Origin: Psococerastis gibbosa
Taxonomy: Eukaryota > Arthropoda > Insecta > Psocodea > Psocidae
NCBI GenBank assembly: GCA_963971405.1
Contig: OZ020485.1
Coordinates: forward strand, 7,192,001-7,256,000
DNA length: 64,000 nt
Direction of reading: 5' to 3'
Shown: piece after piece, positions 9,254 to 48,555 of the stretch
Position numbering within the stretch: position 1 is the stretch's first letter
Layout: each line of letters begins with the position of its first letter
Notes under the pieces: generated by a model
Told to the model about the DNA's origin: nothing
What the model saw: only the letters and a program-made list of their open reading frames with translations
Databases searched by the model: none
Made by a program: the position numbers and the translations under genes

Positions 9254-10204
<951 letters not shown>

Positions 10205-10678
10205 GTAAGGTCAATAGTAACCAAAACAATGGAAAACGTTCACCCTATATATAAAATTAAAGAACTTATGATAAAAAGGGAACTTGCACGAGATCCAAAG
10301 TTGAAAAATGAAAGTTGGGAAAGGTTTTTGCCTCATTTCAAAAATAAGACAGTTTCCAAAAGAAAGCAACCAAAGAGCAAAAAGGGTAAGAAGCCTTACA
10401 CGCCTTTCCCTCCGCCACAGCCTGAAAGTAAGATCGATAAAGAATTGGCGTCAGGAGAATATTTTATGAAAGATGGCCAAAAGAAAGCAATTAAGCGGAA
10501 GCAGATTCTCGAGAAACATGCGGCCTCGAAGAAAAAGAGAGAGGAGGAGCGAAATCTGCCATTTGTACCTCCCGAGGAGAAGTATATGGAAAAAAAACGG
10601 AAGACCTCGGATGTCAATATTGAAGAGCTGAAGAATAAAGTTAAAAAGTCATTTAAAAAGAAAAAAGAAACCACTTAA
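10205..10678 (+). CDS. KRR1: KRR1, exon 2 and stop
   Basis: This exon continues in phase 0 as [19 protein letters not shown], the expected sequence after the KH domain of KRR1. It follows with [45 protein letters not shown] (family hallmark) and a lysine-rich tail ending KKKKETT. There are 157 codons plus TAA, so the protein is about 338 residues, slightly short of the human protein but complete in its blocks. The basic tail is typical of nucleolar proteins. No canonical AATAAA follows closely, so the 3' end of the mRNA is uncertain. Confidence 0.93.
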
Positions 10679-16099: not shown

Positions 16100-19000
16100 T
16101 TATTATTTTATTTAGAAGGTTGAGCTGACATAGGTCTGGGGACCCTTTGAACAGCATAATTATTGGGATCACATCCCAATCATTCAAACTATGCCCTTAG
16201 CCAATTAATTAACTGTTGAAAAACAGCAGCTTAACCTTGTTAGCGAAGACAACCATGTCCTTCAATGGCAAGTCAATCAGATCGACTTGGTCGATGTAGG
16301 CAGCCCCAAAACAGTCCAACCGCGCCCGCCACAGGGCTGGACAGTGCCCAACCACGTGCTCCGCGGTTTCGTCAGCCTCATTGCAGTGCCGGCAGATGGT
16401 AGGACCTTCATGACCCAATTTGGCCATGTGGGCTCTGAACAAACCATGCCCAGTAACCAGGGCTGCGGTCGTTCGAGCCGTCTCTCTACCGACATTCAGT
16501 TTATGTAACCCCCATCCTTTCTGAGGGTAGAGGAACAACTTCGATGTACGCAATGTGGGAGTTAACCGCCATACCGTTTCAAGTTCTTTATAAAGACTGT
16601 TGACGAGAGTTCTCTTAAAAACTGCCAATCCTAAGGGGAGAATAGGTTCGGGCCCTATAGGGCTATCCGTTGAGCCTTTTCTAGCTAGTTCATCAGCTCG
16701 CTCGTTGCCGTCGATTCCAGCGTGCCCTGGAACCCACAGAATCTCTACAGATATGCGCCATTTTTCTAGTTCCAGTCCAGCTCTTCTACATTCAGCGACC
16801 AGGCCAGACGCCACTGTCGGACAGCTAAGAGCCAGGATGGCTGCCTGACTATCTGAGCATACGGCCACCTTCGTGCAGTCCTGTAGCGTGCCACACAGTT
16901 CAAGTGCGCATCTAATGGCAAACAGTTCAGCCTGGAATACGGATACATACCTTCCTAATGAAATGGAAACCGAACCGGGAGGATACTCGCAAAATACACC
17001 AGCCCCTGCCTTGCCTCCCATTTGGGACCCATCCGTAAAATAGACTATTGTATCCGACGATAAGAACCTCGGCCTATTGTCATTCCACTCATGTCTTTCC
17101 GGTAATCTTATCTTAAAACAGTCATCTGGGGATGCCTTGACTGAAGTCTTATCTTGGGGCATGTTCCCTACATCACCGCATCTGACCGGTAGCTCAGCCT
17201 TCCAAGCCCCCATCGTCTTGAGCCGATATTTAGCAACTAAAGCTTGGAGCTTTAAGAAAATGTGCAGTGGTGGTATGTCAAGCAGGACTTCTAGTGATGC
17301 TGTGGGCGTGGTTCTTATGGCCCCTGTCGCTCCAATGCATACCATCCGTTGAAGTTGTTGCAGACTTTTTTGTGCAGAGAGCACCTCAACCCGTCTCCAC
17401 CATACAATACAACCATACGTTATGATCGGTCTTATAACACCAATATACAACCAGCGAACTATCCTGGGTTTTAATCCCCATGTCGCACTAAAGAGACGTC
17501 TGATTCTGTAGAAAACCAGTGTTGCTTTCCGAATACAGGCTTCCAAGTGACATTTCCAAGTGAGCTTCTTGTCCAGAATCACACTTAGGTATTTAACCCT
17601 GTCAGTTATTTTCAGCACTTGTCCCTCCATGGTCAAAGTAGGCAACACGCCTAATTTCCTTTTTCTTGTGAAAAGAACAACTTCCGTCTTTTGGGGGTTG
17701 ACCCCTAGTTCTTTATCTGCGCACCACCGGGTAACGGTATCAAGAGCTCCTTGCATAATTTCGAATATAGTGGAGAGGAAGATCCCCACGACAAGAATTC
17801 GAATATCATCAGCATATGCATCTGCCATTATACCACAGGCTTTTAGAATTATTAGTAGTTCATTAACGACAAGGCTCCACAGCAAAGGTGACAAGACGCC
17901 ACCTTGTGGGCACCCACAGGCTACAGCAATCGTGGCAACCGCCTCCCCCCTTTCTGAGCTGACCAATCTACTTTTTGACATGTTTTCCACCCAATAAATA
18001 ACAATTGGATTAATGGTCCTCATTCTCAAGGCTCTCTTAATGGCTTCAAAGGAAACATTATTGAACGCCCCCTGTATATCAAGAAATGTAACCAAAGCTA
18101 ATTCGCCCCCATCAAGGGTCTTTTGCAGCCTATCCACCAAGGAGTAGAGTGCCGTTTCTGTAGACTTCCCTGTTTGGTACGCATGTTGGTTGGGAGAAAG
18201 TGGAGCATTAACAGAGATGTCGGCCCGAATTGACCATTCAATGAGACGTTCGAGAACCTTAAGAAGAAATGAACTTAACGTGATCGGTCTGAACGAGTTA
18301 GGCTGAGTGTAGTCAGTCTTCCCAGGTTTGGGGATGAACACAACTCGCACTCTTTTCCATGAATTTGGAATGTAGCCAAATCTCAGAGACGCCTTAAAAA
18401 GCAAGCCTAAGCAATCAATTATAGACTCTAAGCCATGTTTCAACATAGCTGGAATAACTCCATCAGGGCCTGCAGCTTTATAAGGTGAAAACTTCAGTAT
18501 TGCACACCTGATCCTTCTTTCCGTAACTATATCTCCAATCGATTCATTCTCATGAGACGAAATTGTAGGCAGAGTAGGAGAGATTGACATCCCGTCGTTT
18601 TCTTGGTCCACCTCTCTTGACCCCGGAAAATGAGCGTTCAAGAGCACTTGCAAGGCCTCCTTGTCACCTTCCGAAAAGCTTCCGTCAGGCTTCTGCAGGA
18701 TCCCCTCCTCCATGTGTCTTGTCTTACCAAGACATTTCTGTACCCTCATTGCAACAGGCAATTCATTGATATCACTGGTGAATTTCCTAAATGACACCTT
18801 TTGGGCGAGAGCAACGGCTTTCTTAAACCGGTTTCTAGCCGTAATATATGCCTCGATATCTGAATAGTTCTTAGTACGCCTCTTCCTATTATAGAGTCTT
18901 CTTGTCTCATTCCTACATTTTTCCACCTCTTTACTCCACCAGGTAGGTCTGGATAAGTCGCGGGCTCTGGAAAGTGGGCAGCAGGCCATGTAAGTGCTCA

Positions 19001-19390
19001 CCATCATCGAAGACAGGGTGTTGACAGCGTTGTCAAGTTCCTCCGCACTTCCTGGTTCATGACTAGGGTAGCCTAACATTTGCACAGCCATTTTGTCAGC
19101 GTACATGGCCCAGTCAGCCTTCCTCGGATTTCTGAACGTCCGCCTTTGTCCTTTAGGGCCATTATCTATAGTGAAAAGAATATGCTTATGGTCAGCCAGA
19201 GATTCCTCCCTTGACACCTTCCAACCTTTTATAGCATACAACATCGTTGGACTGGCCATTGTCAAGTCTAAGACCTCATTTCTGATAGCATTTTCAAACG
19301 TTGCTTCACTGCCCTGATTCACTACATGAAGGTCATTCGATATTATAAAATCTAACAGCTCCCTACCACGGGGGTTGATGTCAGAGCTAC
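16100..19390 (-). mobile_element. 5'-truncated RNase H-bearing LINE L1 (I superfamily)
   Basis: A 3.3-kb retroposon in the same orientation as GALNT2, flanked by perfect 13-bp duplications. Its 5' end is cut inside the endonuclease domain and its 3' end is an AAATAAAATAATAA-type tail. It lies in the last GALNT2 intron, only 52 bp inside the 5' splice site. Without it, that intron would be about 0.8 kb. The uninterrupted coding frame suggests a young insertion. Confidence 0.88.
16209..19387 (-). CDS. LINE polyprotein: endonuclease C-part, reverse transcriptase, RNase H, zinc knuckle
   Basis: This encodes the machinery for target-primed reverse transcription. The frame is open from the truncation at about 19387, upstream of the first ATG at 19322. 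Counting from that Met: the endonuclease tail includes a degenerate SDH motif (LADHKHI, 42-48). The reverse transcriptase has AAGPDGV (283-289), FLDIQGAF (413-420) and the catalytic YADD (503-506). The RNase H has D764 (FTDGS), E799 (QAEL), D824 (CSDSQAA) and H867/D876 (PGHAGIDGNERAD). A CRHC..H..C zinc knuckle sits near residue 985. The order fits the I superfamily of non-LTR elements; I cannot fix the clade. It lacks the 5' part (ORF1 and most of the endonuclease), so this copy cannot move by itself. Confidence 0.88.
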
Positions 19391-19403
19391 TGTGTTGACA
19401 ATA
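19391..19403. repeat. Target-site duplication of LINE L1, 5' side
   Basis: TGTGTTGACAATA, identical to 16087-16099. Confidence 0.85.
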
Positions 19404-19442
19404 ATAATATTAATGTAAATTGTAGGAAATTTGACTGCAAAC

Positions 19443-20222: not shown

Positions 20223-20232
20223 AAAACATGAC
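20223..20232. repeat. Target-site duplication of LINE L2, left
   Basis: AAAACATGAC, identical to 21894-21903. Confidence 0.75.
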
Positions 20233-21893
20233 AGCATGACGCTCTTGTCTCTGAGCGAATGCAAAGGGCCTTAACCATAGCCCATAATTGGTGCCTTTCT
20301 GAAGGACTGAATATAAATCCTAAAAAAACCACCCTGGTCCCGTTCACGAGGAAGTTGAAGCTTAATATTAAAGCTCCCACCTTCAGCGGGGTGCGTTTAG
20401 CCCTCACAGATAGCACCAAATATCTTGGTGTTATCCTTGACCGGAAGCTCACATGGAGCCTGCATCTGGACCAGGCTGTAAGCAGGGCACGAAACGCCTT
20501 ATTTCTTACGAGCAGAATGGTGGGTAGAACGTGGGGGCTTAAGCCGAAAGTAACGGACTGGCTATATAAGTCCATTGTGCGACCTATAATTAGCTATGCG
20601 GCGCTAATTTGGTGGCCTAGACTGCATAAGAGCAAAAAGGGAGCAAAATCTCTCACCAAACTACAGAGGCTGGCTTGCCTCGCGATCACGGGAGCATCCC
20701 GTTCGTGCCCCACGGCTGCCATGGAGGTCCTATTGAACCTACCACCACTCCCGATTTTCATCGAGAGTGAGGCAGCTAAGTGGGCCTATCGCATTAAGAA
20801 AAGCCATGGACTAAAGCCTGGCGACCTTACCGGACACTTACGCATTCTTAATGAGTGCAAGGTTCCGGAGGTTATGTTCTCAGACTCCATGGAGACAACT
20901 TTTCAATTCTCAAAGAATTTCTCGGTTATATTGGAAAGCCGGAAAAAATGGACTGACGGAGAGGTAGTCTTTCCATACGGCTCATTAAGATTTTATACTG
21001 ATGGGTCAAAAATAGAAAACGGAGGTACAGGGGCGGGGGTTTATGGGCCACGACTCAACTTAGTCATCCCCATGGGATCCCAACCCACAGTCTTCCAAGC
21101 CGAAATACATGCCATACGCGCATGTGCGGCGCATTGCATTAAACGTGCTTACCGCCACAGCAAGATATTCATTATCTCCGACAGCATGGCTTCCCTTCTT
21201 GCGCTGGACTCGAGTAGCTACGAGTCCAAGCAGGTGTGGGAATGTATGCTTGCACTCAACGCATTGGGAGTGACGAATAAAGTCACCCTCATGTGGGTTC
21301 CAGGACACGCCGGGATCGAAGGCAATGAAAATGCCGACGAGAAGGGAGCGCGCTACCCTTCATTGGGCCTGAACCCTTCTGCGCCTTCCCGAGAAACCGC
21401 CAAACCCTAGAGATTGGCCTATGGGAAGAAAAGAGAAAGGAAGCATACTGGAAGTCTGTCACAGGCCACAGACAATCCAAAATATTCCTCACTCACTCTA
21501 AGAGCTATACCGCCAAAGCACTGAACCTCAGCAAGCCTGAACTTAAGGTACTTACAGGTGCACTCACAGGACACTGCCACGTGAACTACCATTTAAAGAA
21601 CATGGGTAAAGTCTTGAATGACACCTGCCGATTCTGCAAAGAAAAGGCTGAGACTGCTGAGCATATCATCTGCTCGTGTCCGGCAGTAAAGAACAGACGG
21701 CTGCTAGCAACGTCCTCTTGGTTTCTATCACCAAGGGAGGCTTGCCAGTTGGCCCCTGGGCAGTTGTGCAGGTTTTTACGGGACCTGCTGACTGACCAGG
21801 ACTAAAAGTACGGGGATTCACAATAGATCTTTAAGGTCAAAGTGAGCCAAGCTCAAGTAGCAGCATCGCCCCATTACTAATCTAATCTAATCT
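20233..21893 (+). mobile_element. 5'-truncated RNase H-bearing LINE L2, antisense to GALNT2
   Basis: A 1.66-kb insertion between 10-bp direct repeats, ending in short TAATC-type repeats. It keeps the end of the reverse transcriptase, the RNase H and the zinc knuckle. It is related to but distinct from L1, as shown by shared motifs such as WGLKP, EVLL..PPL.IF and WVPGHAGI.GNE. It lies in the GALNT2 intron 58 bp from a splice acceptor and on the opposite strand. Confidence 0.82.
20259..21805 (+). pseudogene. LINE L2 reverse transcriptase/RNase H frame, frameshifted
   Basis: The first frame (20259-21410) reads through the reverse transcriptase thumb (KYLGVILDRKLTW) and RNase H with FTDGS-like YTDGSK, QAEIHAI, SDSMAS and WVPGHAGIEGNENAD. 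Just after that, near 21345, the frame must shift to continue as LPFIGPEPFCAF. From there a second frame is open to 21805. It contains GHCHVNYHLK, CRFCKEKAETAEHIICSCP and ends LLTDQD. One indel therefore breaks an otherwise readable protein. The polymerase YADD box and all upstream parts are absent because of 5' truncation. Confidence 0.82.
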
Positions 21894-22247: not shown

Positions 22248-24031
22248 TTCTTCTTCTTCTTCTTCCGGCTCTACAGCCCTTGGTGGGCTTTGGCCTGCTC
22301 GACAACACTCCTCCATTCTTCTCGGTTTTGCACAACGCTCCACCATCTGGAGACTCCCAACTCGCGAAGGTCATTCTCTAACTCGTCCTTCCAGCGGTTT
22401 CTTGGCCGTCCTGGCAGTCGTCTTCCCGTCATGCTTGCTTTGTACATTTTTCGTGGCATGCGTTCTTCAGACATCCTTACAACGTGTCCCAGCCACCTTA
22501 ATCGTTGTGCTTTAATGAACCTTACTATGTCTTCTCCGTTGAGAGCGGCGTCGATTTCAGCGTTGTGTCTTATACGCCATTCTCCGTACTCGTAAAGGGG
22601 TCCATATATCCTCCTTATTATCTTTCTTTCGAGTACACGTAGTTTGTTGGCATCGTTTACAGTGAGATTCCAGGTTTCCGATCCGTATGTTGCAACTGGT
22701 CTTATAAGGGTTTTGTATATTCGTAGTTTTGTGGCTCTAGAGATAAGTCTTGACTTGAGCAATTTTAGGTTGGCAAAATATGCTCTATTGGCTGCTGTTA
22801 TTCTTCTGTCTATCTCTGCGCTAGTTTTGTTTTGATTGTTTACTTCTGCACCAAGGTAGATGAAGCTCTTTACATTCTCGAAAGCCATTCCTTGTACAGT
22901 CAGGTTGTCACTTCTCCGTCTCCTTTCTAACGCTGACATTACTAGATACTTAGTTTTTGAGACATTTATTTCTAGTCCAGCTCTACTCGCCTCTACACAT
23001 AGTCTAGCAAGTATCTCTCCTAGTTGCTTCCTATTTTTAGTGATTATGACTATGTCATCCGCATATGCGCAGATCATTTGTGACTTGTATACAATTGTCC
23101 CACTCTCTACTATATTCTGTAACGCTGCTTGCAGTGCCAGGTTGAACAGTGTAGCTGAGAGGGCGTCTCCTTGTCGTACCCCTCTGCCGAGTGGGAATTC
23201 TTCTCCACATCGTCCGTCTATTATTACACTGGCTCTGGCGTTTTCCATAGTCATTTTTACTAGATTAACTAGTTTTTTTGGTATTCCTTGTCGGATCATT
23301 GTGTTATATAGGCTGTCTTTCCAAATAGAATCGAAAGCCTGTCTAAAATCCACAAAGAGCATGTGTAGGTCCGTATTATGCTCGTAGCATTTTTCCATAG
23401 TTTGCCGTACAACGAAGATTTGGTCAACAGTTCCCCTGGCTGGTCTAAAACCACATTGGTACTCGCCTATTATTTCTTCTGCATACGGTGAGATTTTTCT
23501 TAATAGAAGATTTGAGAAAGTCTTGTAGGCAGTATTAAGGAGTGTAATTCCTCTGTAGTTATTGCAGTCCAACTTGTCGCCTTTCTTGTAAATCGGTACT
23601 ATAGTTCCTGTTTGCCATGCTTCCGGCATACATTCGTTTGCCCAGATCTTTGTAATAATGTCATGTAGTTCTTTTACAACCTCTGACCCAGAGTATTTTA
23701 GTATTTCACTGGTGATGCCATCTTTGCCTGGTGCTTTATAGTTATTCATCCTTTTTATGGCGTTTTCTACCTCTATTAGTGTTGGTGGGGGTATAAGCAT
23801 TTCCGCAGTTTGTGGTAGTGGTTCTTCTTCTGGTGTAGTGTCGCTCTCTTTGTTGAGTAGTTCTTTGAAGTACTCGGTCCATCGTTCCATAATACTCTCC
23901 TCTTCGCCAAGTAGTTTCCCATTCTTTTCTTTGCAACCGCTTAGTCTCGCCTTGTATTCTTTCCTGAACCAGTCTGTGTCTTTATAAAATTTCCTGGTCT
24001 GATTTTGCTGCCTTTTGTTTTCTATTTCTTC
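22248..24031 (-). mobile_element. 5'-truncated RTE-like LINE L3
   Basis: A 1.78-kb insertion on the same strand as GALNT2, flanked by 12-bp duplications. Its 3' end is a GAA-type microsatellite. The 5' end is cut before the reverse transcriptase. A dead relative of its 3' end lies at 34272-34428. With L2 it fills most of the intron between exons 19964-20174 and 24721-24940. Confidence 0.85.
22271..24031 (-). CDS. LINE L3 reverse transcriptase (RTE-like), open
   Basis: An uninterrupted frame of about 586 codons from the truncation to the stop. The Met that seems to start it at 24040 lies partly in the target duplication. Motifs in order: YKAPGKDGITSEILK (101-115), YRGITLLNTAYK (162-173), FVDFRQAFDS (229-238), GVRQGDALSATLFNL and the catalytic CAYADDIVI. 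Thumb motifs follow (YLGAEVN, YGSETW). The C-terminus, LRWLGHVVRM..GRPRNRWKDEL, is typical of RTE-like elements. There is no RNase H. The endonuclease is lost by truncation, so the copy is not autonomous. The lack of stops suggests recent insertion. Confidence 0.85.
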   Translation of the reverse strand, partial: EEIENKRQQNQTRKFYKDTDWFRKEYKARLSGCKEKNGKLLGEEESIMERWTEYFKELLNKESDTTPEEEPLPQTAEMLIPPPTLIEVENAIKRMNNYKAPGKDGITSEILKYSGSEVVKELHDIITKIWANECMPEAWQTGTIVPIYKKGDKLDCNNYRGITLLNTAYKTFSNLLLRKISPYAEEIIGEYQCGFRPARGTVDQIFVVRQTMEKCYEHNTDLHMLFVDFRQAFDSIWKDSLYNTMIRQGIPKKLVNLVKMTMENARASVIIDGRCGEEFPLGRGVRQGDALSATLFNLALQAALQNIVESGTIVYKSQMICAYADDIVIITKNRKQLGEILARLCVEASRAGLEINVSKTKYLVMSALERRRRSDNLTVQGMAFENVKSFIYLGAEVNNQNKTSAEIDRRITAANRAYFANLKLLKSRLISRATKLRIYKTLIRPVATYGSETWNLTVNDANKLRVLERKIIRRIYGPLYEYGEWRIRHNAEIDAALNGEDIVRFIKAQRLRWLGHVVRMSEERMPRKMYKASMTGRRLPGRPRNRWKDELENDLRELGVSRWWSVVQNREEWRSVVEQAKAHQGL

Positions 24032-24043
24032 TTCATGCAACTC
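24032..24043. repeat. Target-site duplication of LINE L3, 5' side
   Basis: TTCATGCAACTC, matching 22236-22247. Confidence 0.8.
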
Positions 24044-24174
24044 ACATTAGTTAATTTCGTCCTACATTTTCCCATTTCGCCATTTCGTCCCCCCCCCCCT
24101 TACATATACCACTGGCATTGCATGTTGCATGCATATGGGCTGTAAATAACAAAGAGGACCAAATCCTCCATGTG

Positions 24175-42175: not shown

Positions 42176-42180
42176 CGCCG
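42176..42180. repeat. Transib target-site duplication, left
   Basis: CGCCG, identical to 46433-46437. Five bases and GC-rich, as expected for Transib. Confidence 0.9.
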
Positions 42181-42216
42181 CACAGTGGGGTATTTGCCCG
42201 ATTTAGCTGGCCAAAA
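42181..42216. repeat. Transib left terminal inverted repeat
   Basis: 36 bp, starting CACAGTGGGGTATTTGCC and ending GGCCAAAA, perfectly inverted at 46397-46432. CACAGTG equals the recombination-signal heptamer. After a 23-nt spacer comes CCAAAACTC, which matches 6 of 9 positions of the RSS nonamer consensus ACAAAAACC. Confidence 0.93.
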
Positions 42217-42245
42217 CTCAGAAAATCAAGCGATTTTCATGAAAC

Positions 42246-42765
42246 TTGGTGGAAAGGTGGATCTTAGGTAGAAAAAAATTACAAAAAAATTTTGTTAAAA
42301 AAAATTCAAGATGGCGGCCAAAATTGACCAAATTCTATATCTCAGCTTATTATGAACTAATTCAAGCCAAAATTCATATTTAGGTGCATCTTAGGTAGAA
42401 AAAAATCACAAAAAAATTTTGTTAAAAAAAATCCAAGATGGCGGTCAAAATCGACCAAATTCTATATCTCAGCTTATTATGAACTAATTCAAGCCAAAAT
42501 TCATATTTAGGTGCATCTTAGGTAGAAAAAAATTACGAAAAATTTTTGTTAAAAAAAATCCAAGATGGCGGCCAAAATCGACCAAATTCTATATCTCAGC
42601 TTATTATGAATTAATTCAAGCCAAAATTCATATTTAGGTGCATCTTAGGTAGAAAAAAATTACAAAAAATTTTTGTTAAAAAAAATTCAAGATGGCGGCC
42701 AAAATCGGCAAAAGTCTATATCTCAGCTTATTATGGGCTAATTGAGGCCAAAATTCATATTTAGG
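42246..42765. repeat. 127-bp tandem repeats inside Transib, four units
   Basis: The unit, starting near ATCTTAGGTAGAAAAAAAT, repeats with an exact 127-bp period (starts 42261, 42388, 42515 and 42642) and a partial fifth unit. Each contains CAAGATGGCGG (42307, 42434, 42561, 42688), close to the YY1/Pho binding consensus. The block lies past the transposase stop, near the left end. Confidence 0.9.
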
Positions 42766-43119
42766 TGGAAATATATCATATTAGTTGATATGCAAATTTT
42801 GACAGCCATAAATAAATTATTTATTTATTAAATAAATAAATAATCAAATATTTGGGTAGTCAAGATCAGCTTATAACCTGAATCTAGCCTTTAAATTGGT
42901 CAAAATATTTTCGTTCGGTAGCCTATGTAGGCCTAGATATTGATTCATTAAATGCCAAAGGCAAACATTAAGTGGTACAATACAAGCAGGCTAAATACCC
43001 CGATAAGCTGGATTTAGGAAATTTAAAACATTAAACATTAAAACAGTGCCGATTTGTATATTGCAAAAAGTAGAGAGATCAGAGGCAACTTTCTGCTATT
43101 GGCTCCCTTTCCCCTTCAG

Positions 43120-43379
43120 TTATTCATCTGATTCTGATGAGCTGGCTGATTCCTCCTCTATAATTAGCATGTTAGTGCTCTCTTCTGATAATTTTTTGGA
43201 TGGTCTTCTATGCAGCCGTGTATTGATGTATTCAAGAGACAGCAAGGGGTCTGAAGTTAGAAGCAGTCTGTTTAACACATCCTCATTTGTGGCTATGCGA
43301 GAACATTTTCGCGAATACCCCTTGCGGTACTTGCGGAGGCTTTTGTTCCGTGCTTCCGCTGCCTCCTCTGACAACTGGC
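43120..43379 (-). CDS. Transib transposase, exon 4 (catalytic Glu region, stop)
   Basis: This exon completes a split Gly codon, then reads QLSEEAAEARNKSLRKYRK, CSRIATNEDVLNRLLLTSDP and ends in a Ser/Glu-rich tail ESASSSESDE and TAA. SEEAAEARNK.LRKYRK aligns with the RAG1 block ASEGNESGNKLFRRFRK that holds its third acidic residue. The Glu cluster is at residues 582-586 of the joined protein. The acceptor is TTAATTTTAG. Confidence 0.9.
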
Positions 43380-43500
43380 CTAAAATTAAATCGAATAATT
43401 AATGAAAAATATATAATTATATAAACTATTGTAATAGGTATATAGAATACAGTACAATCACATCATTGAAAAAGTATAGGTTAGTAATTAAATTAAATAC

Positions 43501-43710
43501 CAATAGGCAGAAGAGAGCTCTCGACTATTACAGGCCCGTGGACCAACAACTTGTGGAGGGTCGGTGTCATTGGGTACCATTGATAATTTGTCACGTATAA
43601 TTCGGCAGTTTCCTTCGTATAAATTCCAAATTTTTCAACATCAATTTTCCTCGTAGAACACAATACCTCGATGATTACTTTGAGGCGTTGGATTAAGGAT
43701 AAGTCAAACC
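43501..43710 (-). CDS. Transib transposase, exon 3
   Basis: 210 nt, phase 1 to phase 1. The acceptor is TTTGTTCCAG and the donor GTATTT. It encodes GFDLSLIQRLKVIIEVL, DVEKFGIYTKETAELYV and YPMTPTLHKLLVHGPVIVES. TPTLHKLLVHG is a Transib-conserved stretch between the second Asp and the Glu. The two flanking introns are only 160 and 121 bp. Confidence 0.9.
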
Positions 43711-43870
43711 CTGGAACAAATAAATAACAAGTTAATATAATATACTAGAGATAAATTGAGCATTTTATATAGGCCTATATAGCAATGTAATGTGTTTTCA
43801 AAAATAAACAGTAGGGTACCTACGTAGTATATGAACAGAGAGGAGGAAAATATTTCTTCATTCGACTCAC

Positions 43871-45373
43871 CTGTTATATCATGCGCTTTTTCTGGACTCT
43901 CAAAGAATCTTCGTGATGTATTGCCATCGTTGGTATTGCCTGCCCCTGCTTTTGGCACGTCCACAATTAGGCCCAGTTCCGTTTTGAATCTGCGTTGAAT
44001 TTCCTTTTTTCTTTCTTTCATTATTCTTTTCCCTTCTACGTCTTTTTTCGGCACCTTCCACTTTTTCAATGGCAGCTTGTACGAAATTTTTAAAATGCTT
44101 TCCATTAGTCTTATTCTAGCGTGCAAAGTGGATAACCCAAACTTCAGGCTCTCCTCATTTACCTTTCGCGATATCGTCAGATCATTGAAAGTGTTCATGT
44201 TACCTCCACAAATGTAACATGCCATAGTGGATCTTGTGTCAGTAGCAGCATTACACACCTTTCCGTCAACCATTGTGGGTAACATAATTACTTTAATTTT
44301 GTATGTCTTATCAAAGACATTCAAAGTTACATTATTGAAACCTGTCAGCGAATCTTCAATATGCTGCATCTCTTCTTGTGTCCCTTCGGCAGTTTCTTTT
44401 TTGAAATGAATTCTTATAGGCCTACACAATCGCGGAGAAGAAGGCAGAGGATTCACCCAGATCGGTAGTCCTGTCTGAGTCGAGACGAGTTTCAATGGCA
44501 CCATGGAACTTTGGAAAACTGCTGAATCAGAAGCATTTACTTCGTCCTTGAAGACCTGCTTGTATTCTGCCTGCTGACTCCCATCACAGCCCCATTTCGA
44601 AATTAATGTGAGCTCGCGTTCTTCTGGCATTTCCGGTAAAGCTATCAATAGCCTGTGCGTCGTCAGCTTTAGAAGTTCTTTTAAGTCCACTTCCGCCTTT
44701 GTTTCAGTTATGGTTACAGCTTCTGGAGCCGGGTAGCATTTCCTCTTTTCTCGTTGGACAATACTGTACGAAGGGTACAATTTTTTATTTGTGCCTGTGC
44801 CTCTAACGATATTATACTGATTTCTAGTTAGATCTGCGTCCACGATCATTCCGAGTGCCTCTTTCGCAGTAAGTGTGTTTTTCACCAAGCTGCTGTGCCG
44901 GTCCTCTTCTATTACCATCTTAATTTTCTTCACTTTTGAAGGAGAACCCATCAAGCCATCCATTACTGAAGCTGCTTGCCTCTTCCCCTTTCTATATATC
45001 TTAGAACGAGCAGCAAGAAGCAGTTCTTGGGAATCAACTTCCTCCACAATTTTTTTCACCCTCCTTCTTTTTGTCCGACCCGAACTAGAAGCGAAGTCCG
45101 CATTTGGCCGTCCCGGCTTTACCTCTGTACCTCCCTCGTGCCATACCAGTTCCAACCACTGGCGGTGTTTTTCTACGAAACGATTATCCATATAGTTACA
45201 ACACTTTCTTCTCTCGTTCAGCTTGGATTTCAATCTAATGAATTTCCCTAATAAAGAACGTGGCACGCTTTCTTTAAAATTGTTGCATTTTTCGTCGAAA
45301 TTCGTCCCACTGTTGGTCATTATCTTACAATAAATGTCTTTGTGACTGATTTTGGACGACCAAAATCGCATTT
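43871..45373 (-). CDS. Transib transposase, exon 2 (bulk of the protein)
   Basis: 1503 nt, with 500 full codons and no stop. Transposase of the Transib superfamily, which cuts the transposon ends by a hairpin-type reaction like RAG1 (known for the family). The first acidic residue is in LISKWGCDGS (D270 of the joined protein) and the second in LPTMVDGKV (D376). The spacing of 106 is close to the 108 between the RAG1 aspartates 600 and 708. CYICGG (C392, C395) follows at the place of the RAG1 C-x2-C. FGLSTLHARIRLMESIL parallels the RAG1 LHCDIGNAAEFYKIF stretch. Basic stretches such as TKRRRVKKI could serve DNA binding or nuclear import. The donor is GTGAGT after GATATAACAG. Confidence 0.93.
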
Positions 45374-46144
45374 CTGCAAGAAAAAAATTAATAATTAGTA
45401 AACGCCAAGGAAATTTGGGCCTATGTACAATAGAGGCATTGCCACGCCCTCTAGCAGGGTTTACCTATAGCTGACAGCAGACAACAGCGCGCCGGGGCGC
45501 ACTGCGTCTCCACCACTTTAATTAGTTCAACTTCAGTCACACAGATGGCCAACTCATCGTTCTTTTTCCAATAAATAAACAATAGGCTATTAATTATGCG
45601 ATACATTGAAATAATATTTGTTTAGGAAGCGTAATTGCAACATTTAGCCTACATGTGCTGTGATGTAAGCATAAAAGTTATACTCAGTACCTAGTAGGTG
45701 AAATGTTTTGCTATTAACTTCCATGCATTATTATTCAATTATAAAATTAAATGTGTGCTTAATTTAGTATTCTACAGTAAATACTACCTTCATTTTGGTT
45801 TCAGGGTTCATCACTAAAGTATTGAGCCTACATTATCTTACAGGAACACATTACAGTATATCTGCCTACTAATATAATGTAGGTTGCAGACCAGACTTTC
45901 AGTGAATATTGTAGGAAAAGGGGGACGAACGGGGACGAGATTTCTACTAATCCTTCATCTCAATAAGTCAAACTATACACAGTAATAAGAGATAGCCCGG
46001 GATCGGGTGGGGCTCTTGACATATTCCTAGTTTGAAAAGCCAAAAAAATTGCAATTTAGCAAAAGTTGTCACTTTCATCAGCAATTTAAACCCAATTAAA
46101 TAGCATGAAACTAAACAAACATAATATTAAAATGTTCTACTAAC

Positions 46145-46163
46145 CTTCTTTGTCCAAATCCAT
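46145..46163 (-). CDS. Transib transposase, six-codon exon 1
   Basis: ATG GAT TTG GAC AAA GAA plus one base, then donor GTTAGT. It joins to the AA of exon 2 to give MDLDKEEMRFW in frame. The acceptor TTTTTTTCTTGCAG just before the exon-2 ATG supports splicing. If it is not used, translation could begin at that ATG (45371), losing seven residues. The joined product is 663 residues, a usual length for Transib transposases. The exon is inferred from splice sites and phase only. Confidence 0.7.
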
Positions 46164-46396
46164 AACGGGGTTAAAGTCAAACAGAGCTTACAAAATTAAA
46201 AATAACACAAATTTGGCTGTGCTGAGTGTTGCGTAAAAAATGCTCACAAAAACAAACAAATAGCCACTTTGGCAACGTAATAGCAAAAAAACCGCGTTAT
46301 ATTTTGCCGCCAATCTTTTAAATTAAAAAACTTTGAAGTTTTTTAAATAAAATTAGCCTATATTGATTCAACTTTGTTACATTTTGCAAAAATCAC

Positions 46397-46432
46397 TTTT
46401 GGCCAGCTAAATCGGGCAAATACCCCACTGTG
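46397..46432. repeat. Transib right terminal inverted repeat
   Basis: Perfect inverse of 42181-42216 over 36 bp. Read inwards, CACAGTG is followed after 23 nt by CCAAAAGTG. The transposase start lies 234 bp inside. Confidence 0.93.
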
Positions 46433-46437
46433 CGCCG
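46433..46437. repeat. Transib target-site duplication, right
   Basis: CGCCG, matching 42176-42180. The empty site would have read ACTAACGCCGATTGG. Confidence 0.9.
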
Positions 46438-47734: not shown

Positions 47735-47847
47735 ACTACAGCTATAACCGAAATTAGACGATATGGAAAAAACTGGGCTTGGCGGGATTCGAACCCACGA
47801 CCTACGCCTAACCGGGGCGTCGTCTTAACCGCTGGACCACAAGCCCC
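47735..47847 (-). mobile_element. tRNA-derived SINE S2, copy 1
   Basis: The minus strand starts GGGGCTTGTGGTCCAGCGG (A box TGGTCCAGCGG). It has a five-pair anticodon-like stem (ACGCC..GGCGT) and the B box GGTTCGAATCC, and closes with CAAGCCC. The tail CAGTTTTTTCCATAT and TTTCGGTTATA is shared by three copies, showing a SINE rather than a single tRNA gene. The anticodon loop CCGGTTA lacks the usual U33. Confidence 0.65.
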
Positions 47848-47974
47848 GACAAGTGCAGTAAATGCCAAATCCTCTACTTATGCTCAAATTGACATGATTT
47901 GTGTTGCTAGACAGGTTAGCTTAACTGCACAACTATCTAACCGAACAGGTCTGTGAGCTTACTTCATTGTATAA

Positions 47975-48356
47975 GGTGCCCATTCCATTGACCGGCTAGG
48001 GCTATTTCCAAAACGGTGACGTGGTAGCAGACACTCAAGACTTAGGTGGCGTTTCCACCGACCTCGCATTGCAGAATTGACGGAAATGTTTATTTTCCTC
48101 TATGCCATAGTTAAAATTGATCAATGATCATACAATAAAATCACAAACAAACAAACTAAAATTAAAAAATGGCTTCATGGGATAAGTTAATTACAAACAT
48201 TTTAATAGATTTCTATAAAAAGAAAAACAAACATTTCCGTCAATGTCACTTGCAATCTGCAATGCGAGGTCGGTGGAGACGCTACCTAAGTCTTGAGTGT
48301 CTGCTACCACGTCACCGTTTTGGAAATAGCCCTAGCCGGTCAATGGAATGGGCGCC
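47975..48356. mobile_element. Long-hairpin MITE family A, copy 5
   Basis: 382 bp with ends GGTGCCCATTCCATTGACC and its inverse. TAA lies on the left and TTA on the right. The arms match nearly base for base (GGTGACGTGGTAGCAGACA..). It lies 550 bp from copy 4, with SINE S2 copies on each side. Confidence 0.85.
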
Positions 48357-48412
48357 TTAAGGCAATGCTTTATTCAATATATTGTAGTATTATATGGTAT
48401 ATATAACATTGA

Positions 48413-48555
48413 CATTAAATTAACTTTGGTTGAAGAGGTAACCTCCTCGTTATAACCGAAATTAGAGGATATGGAAAAAACTGGGCTTGGCGGGATTCGA
48501 ACCCACGATCTACACCTAACCGGGGCGTCGTCCTAACCGCTGGACTACAAGCTCC
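48413..48555 (-). mobile_element. tRNA-derived SINE S2, copy 2
   Basis: The minus strand starts GGAGCTTGTAGTCCAGCGG, with the B box GGTTCGAATCC and the tail CAGTTTTTTCCATAT. It continues with TTTCGGTTATAACGAGGAGG and AACCAAAGTTAATTTAAT. Mismatches to copy 1 in the stems show that the two are not selected as tRNAs. Confidence 0.65.

Follow-up and report, generated by a model that had tools for sequence, protein, structure and literature searches.

RAG1 descends from a Transib-like transposase, yet Transibs shown to be active today, or likely to be so, are to our knowledge rare. Hztransib is 3,518 bp long, encodes 489 residues, and is flanked by the duplication GCTCG (PMC1852546). Its catalytic residues are D126, D225, and E436, and the chemistry of hairpin formation and joining is known from this element (PMC6941560) and from RAG. 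Transib1 of Drosophila (3,030 bp) spread in D. melanogaster from 2013 to 2016 after transfer from D. simulans; dated samples reveal both its source and when it moved (PMC12230796). Hztransib and Transib1 are precedents for Transibs that are active or have lately spread. The element considered here lies in a stretch of 64 kb from the barkfly Psococerastis gibbosa (contig OZ020485.1, positions 7,192,001 to 7,256,000; hereafter the window, to which coordinates refer), where it occupies positions 42181-46432 (4,252 bp). The mitochondrial genome of the assembly (contig C68) has a COI that shares 98% identity with that of Psococerastis albimaculata. We conclude, with a probability of about 0.93, that it is an autonomous cut-and-paste transposon of the Transib superfamily and one of 23 copies that stem from a single very recent burst.

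Structure of the element and kinship of its transposase

The features that define a Transib were taken from PMC1852546, PMC4411706, PMC6941560, PMC7204232, and PMC8355894 together with general background: a single transposase gene, homology across the catalytic core, an Asp-Asp-Glu triad at the positions of Hztransib, inverted repeats that start with CAC and carry a heptamer like that of recombination signal sequences (RSS), and a GC-rich target-site duplication of 5 bp. All of these were found in the barkfly element. As the original prediction had described, CGCCG stands on both sides of perfect 36-bp terminal inverted repeats that begin with CACAGTG (36/36 bases identical, the identity ending at base 37). 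The gene structure also came out as predicted, since four minus-strand exons separated by GT...AG introns join into an open frame of 663 residues followed by a stop codon (Table 1). The alignment with a Transib-like protein of Periplaneta americana (P0045; 49% identity across 84% of the query) remains intact over the exon 2/3 and exon 3/4 junctions.

Table 1 Features of the window and degraded Transib loci elsewhere in the genome.
Feature	Coordinates	Strand	Basis or remark
Left target-site duplication, CGCCG	42176..42180		Matches 46433-46437
Left terminal inverted repeat, 36 bp, CACAGTG heptamer outermost	42181..42216	+	36/36 identical with right end
127-bp unit, four copies head-to-tail, between left end and gene	42255..42767
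Exon 4, residues 578-663 and stop, third acidic residue E586	43120..43379	-	Reading frame
Intron 3, 121 bp, GT...AG	43380..43500	-	Alignment continuous in the seven relatives shown
Exon 3, H560 and H565 (zinc-ligand-like HKxLxH)	43501..43710	-	Aligns with RAG1 LHKTLAH
Intron 2, 160 bp, GT...AG	43711..43870	-	Alignment continuous in the seven relatives shown
Exon 2, 1503 bp, D270, D376, C392, C395	43871..45373	-	Protein 100% identical in 23/23 genomic copies
Intron 1, 771 bp, GT...AG	45374..46144	-	Frame, splice signals, MDL/MDF start in two relatives only
Exon 1, 19 bases, MDLDKE, start codon at 46163	46145..46163	-	Reading frame
Right terminal inverted repeat, 36 bp	46397..46432	-	36/36 identical with left end
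Right target-site duplication, CGCCG	46433..46437		Matches 42176-42180
KRR1, host gene (small-subunit processome)	9254-10678	+	At most 72% identity among 120 proteins listed
Uninterrupted 1,066-codon frame (endonuclease, reverse transcriptase, and RNase H domains)	16209-19409	-
Further reverse transcriptase or RNase H frame	20232-21407	+
Further reverse transcriptase or RNase H frame	22271-24046	-
Transfer RNA (tRNA)-like sequence, called tRNA-Thr, anticodon GGT	47774-47846		Flanking block shared with the next, by eye
tRNA-like sequence, called tRNA-Thr, anticodon GGT	48482-48554		Flanking block shared with the previous, by eye
Broken Transib locus L088	C20:662250-662750		Protein search
Broken Transib locus L090	C20:9592950-9593400		Protein search
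Broken Transib locus L089	C20:17067200-17068050		Protein search

Among solved structures, the 663-residue protein matched 6pqn best (expectation value (E) 8.3e-116, residues 175-656), an entry labelled only "putative DNA-mediated transposase" that we take to be Hztransib of Helicoverpa zea, as the residue numbering fits. The next matches of the single-sequence search were RAG1L (6b40, presumably amphioxus ProtoRAG) at E 3e-5 and vertebrate RAG1 at E 0.0018 to 0.0057. With a profile of 32 sequences these values became 1.2e-162 for 6pqn, 1.4e-11 for 6b40, and 1.3e-7 to 1.3e-5 for the vertebrate RAG1 chains, which upholds the proposed assignment to the Transib superfamily and the kinship with RAG1. 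The residues D270, D376, and E586 fall opposite positions 109, 208, and 419 of the 6pqn chain, in each case 17 below the number of the corresponding catalytic residue of Hztransib. Furthermore, D270 and D376 were invariant and E586 nearly so among the 32 aligned sequences.

The transposase is thus homologous to that of Hztransib over the entire solved core and has the identical catalytic triad, and both elements carry terminal inverted repeats and a GC-rich duplication of 5 bp. The barkfly element differs in its four exons, its longer N-terminal part, the 127-bp tandem array near its left end, and its 23 near-identical genomic copies, besides being longer in DNA and protein. With RAG1 and RAG1L it shares the aligned acidic residues and HKxLxH stretch, as well as the CAC-starting heptamer and the 5-bp duplications (PMC7204232). 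The RAG1 layout read earlier from the sequence was also recovered: D376 lies 106 residues after D270 and is followed by C392-x2-C395, which by residue numbers has the order, and about the spacing, of the RAG1 zinc ligands. The convincing match to RAG1 and RAG1L is, however, confined to a C-terminal stretch, the remainder being weak.

Genomic copies, target sites, and ends

The first 27 bases of the element were searched in the 409 Mb genome allowing up to three mismatches, with the reversed sequence as the control. The end occurred 46 times (45 perfect, one with a single mismatch) and the control never. Since the ends were always paired and flanked by 5-bp duplications, these occurrences are not due to chance; they form 23 full-length elements, namely the window copy and 22 others, and CACAGTG stands at all 46 ends. 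Solo ends, short derivatives sharing the ends, and diverged ends were not found within three mismatches, beyond which more diverged ends would escape the search. The lack of nonautonomous copies fits the expectation for a very young invasion.

Thirteen of the 22 other copies were identical to the window copy across all 4,252 bp, and 21 were identical over the 3,665 bp to the right of the array. Altogether six substitutions were counted in 93,034 bp, confined to three copies, so that 20 of all 23 have none; three of the six sit inside the array, where the count depends on gap placement. Insertions or deletions of 1 bp occurred in four of the 22, sparing the coding exons, and every one of the 22 encodes exactly the 663 residues of the window copy. 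The original prediction of a young copy, with relatives of over 95% identity elsewhere in the genome, is therefore borne out, and the finding that it had named as fatal, copies all diverged with broken frames, is the opposite of what was seen. Of the 23 copies, 18 have four 127-bp units, two have five, one has six, and two have two; the variants (L009, L017, L018, L028, and L030) are otherwise near-identical. A unit number ranging from two to six among near-identical copies indicates that the array is remodelled more rapidly than substitutions accumulate, possibly through gap repair following excision.

All 23 copies are flanked by perfect 5-bp duplications, of which 20 conform to CGNCG (CGACG in seven, CGGCG in five, CGTCG in five, and CGCCG in three); CAGCG, CGCTG, and AGACG occur once each. 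The flanks differ among the copies except where insertions lie in common repeats. Two copies (L016 and L024) are inserted at the same position in two copies of one dispersed repeat, hAT-like as we judge it by look, which was not found in a search of the window. This repeat has a CAGTGGCGGCGCTACGGGGG end and presents a CGNCG target. A search with the joined flanks of L024 yielded 903 candidate places; all 40 of those scored ran through the target, and the five sequences inspected each had a single CGGCG. The empty sites that the original prediction had hoped for were hence seen in unoccupied paralogous repeats, whereas its proposal concerned other individuals.

The copies are distributed over chromosomes 2 to 8 (seven autosomes), with none on chromosome 1, X, or Y. 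A chromosome bias was rejected, because a chi-square simulation of the overall distribution gave p 0.24; the value for zero copies on chromosome 1 alone was 0.038, uncorrected.

By analogy with Hztransib and RAG, the spliced transposase would bind both CACAGTG ends and nick beside the heptamer, whereupon the flanking donor DNA would form a hairpin. The freed 3' ends would then join a CGNCG target, and the 5-bp stagger would later be filled in. The heptamer is exact at both ends. Behind a 23-bp spacer, the nonamer ACAAAAACC is matched at 6/9 positions on the left and 5/9 on the right, and equal matches occur at other spacers (6/9 at 22 and 32 on the left, 5/9 at 22 on the right). The nonamer-like block was judged weak as evidence of RSS anatomy.

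Age, origin, and alternative explanations

The divergence among the copies amounts to 6.4e-5 per site. At an insect mutation rate of 2.8e-9 per site and generation, the copies would be about 23,000 generations old (Poisson range, about 8,000 to 50,000). The heterozygosity of the host is 0.64% (PMC12559846), about 100 times the copy divergence, so that many of the insertions should still be polymorphic. We infer that many of the 23 are still segregating, and the sequences suggest that the family is probably still mobile.

The origin of the family was approached with two protein searches of the genome. With the 663-residue protein as the query, only the 23-copy family was found (67 of 73 candidates scored), whereas the Periplaneta relative revealed three more loci (74 of 75 candidates scored), all on contig C20 (22.82 Mb), taken as X from its length. 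They consist of four pieces with at least one stop codon in each. Older Transibs therefore lived and died in the genome of P. gibbosa. The Periplaneta query also gave a dubious match at another place in the genome (E 0.105, 23% identity). We observed that the broken loci are all on X and the 23 young copies all autosomal. The X pieces are 38-46% identical to the barkfly element protein and score higher with other Transib proteins among the 120 listed, indicating that the 23-copy family did not grow out of the detected older ones. A recent horizontal arrival is consequently favoured, and on these comparisons the family most likely entered the lineage recently by horizontal transfer. In this respect it resembles Transib1, whose spread is current or very recent and followed horizontal transfer, with the difference that old fragments of the same element were present in the case of Transib1 (PMC12230796) and none were found for the barkfly family.

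Several observations weigh against this account. The Pfam RAG1 model, the only Pfam match, scores 19.3 bits against a cut-off of 25. Three of four relatives also fall below the cut-off and one (P0118) has no match, so that the weak score looks like a limit of the RAG1 model. The highest identity among the best 120 of 549 homologous proteins is 52%, and homology supports exon 1 little, an MDL or MDF start occurring in two of the seven relatives shown. Furthermore, the case for horizontal transfer rests on the absence of older family members rather than on a donor or near relative. The tree carried no weight in this account: the element forms a solitary long branch beside 6pqn, which is likewise long, so its placement there is unsure and may reflect a long-branch effect.

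A RAG-like transposon with RAG1L and RAG2L genes would share the layout of the acidic residues and the zinc-ligand-like residues that are common to RAG1 and the barkfly transposase. The protein is nevertheless far nearer 6pqn (391 bits) than RAG1L (26 bits) or RAG1, and no RAG2-like partner was found, as outside the transposase exons the element has no stop-to-stop frame longer than 131 codons, shorter frames not having been scanned for domains; we regard this explanation as extremely improbable. The near-perfect identity of the copies would also be expected if a single locus had been multiplied by segmental duplication or by the assembly. This idea is hardly credible, since similarity does not extend beyond the inverted repeats, and the copies occupy 23 places on seven chromosomes with their own flanks and their own 5-bp duplications, in an assembly made from HiFi reads with a quality value of 60.4 (PMC12559846).

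The three broken loci on X make it conceivable that the family arose from a resident Transib within the barklouse lineage. We consider this unlikely, however, given the low protein identity of those loci and their better scores with other Transib proteins, and neither the end search nor the two protein searches found intermediate copies or ends. A possible, if somewhat doubtful, alternative to present mobility is a recent burst that has already ended, for example through small-RNA silencing, leaving copies intact yet immobile: sequence cannot separate recent from present activity, and the few substitutions are compatible, at the rate given above, with a mean age that may reach tens of thousands of generations. 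Against it stand the absence of broken frames from every copy, the lack of short derivatives with these ends in the 27-base search, and a divergence of about one hundredth of the host heterozygosity (PMC12559846). We therefore retain a young Transib invasion, most likely horizontal in origin and probably continuing, as the preferred reading.

Neighbouring features and significance

Elsewhere in the window, the uninterrupted 1,066-codon frame is by look possibly an intact non-long-terminal-repeat retrotransposon. The two tRNA-Thr-like sequences are probably a tRNA-derived repeat and resemble the sequence beside the L018 insertion. By eye, a long inverted repeat (47960-48360) lies between them.

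In the literature searched, from which Repbase and subscription papers were excluded, Transib was not named together with Psocodea or Psocoptera. The joint reading that the family is in mid-invasion with segregating insertions and that its ends also form a symmetric, 23-bp-spaced RSS-like pair, to some degree recognisable to vertebrate RAG, is in our estimate quite improbable. If it were true, the element, with its exact heptamer and A-rich nonamer-like block, would be a living counterpart of the ancestor that preceded the 12/23 arrangement. The family comprises 23 copies that are intact and nearly identical, and its 23 target sites form an insertion spectrum; the paralogous empty sites are clean, and the transposase is divergent. 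It lends itself to comparisons of Transib transposition with V(D)J cleavage and to following a young invasion.

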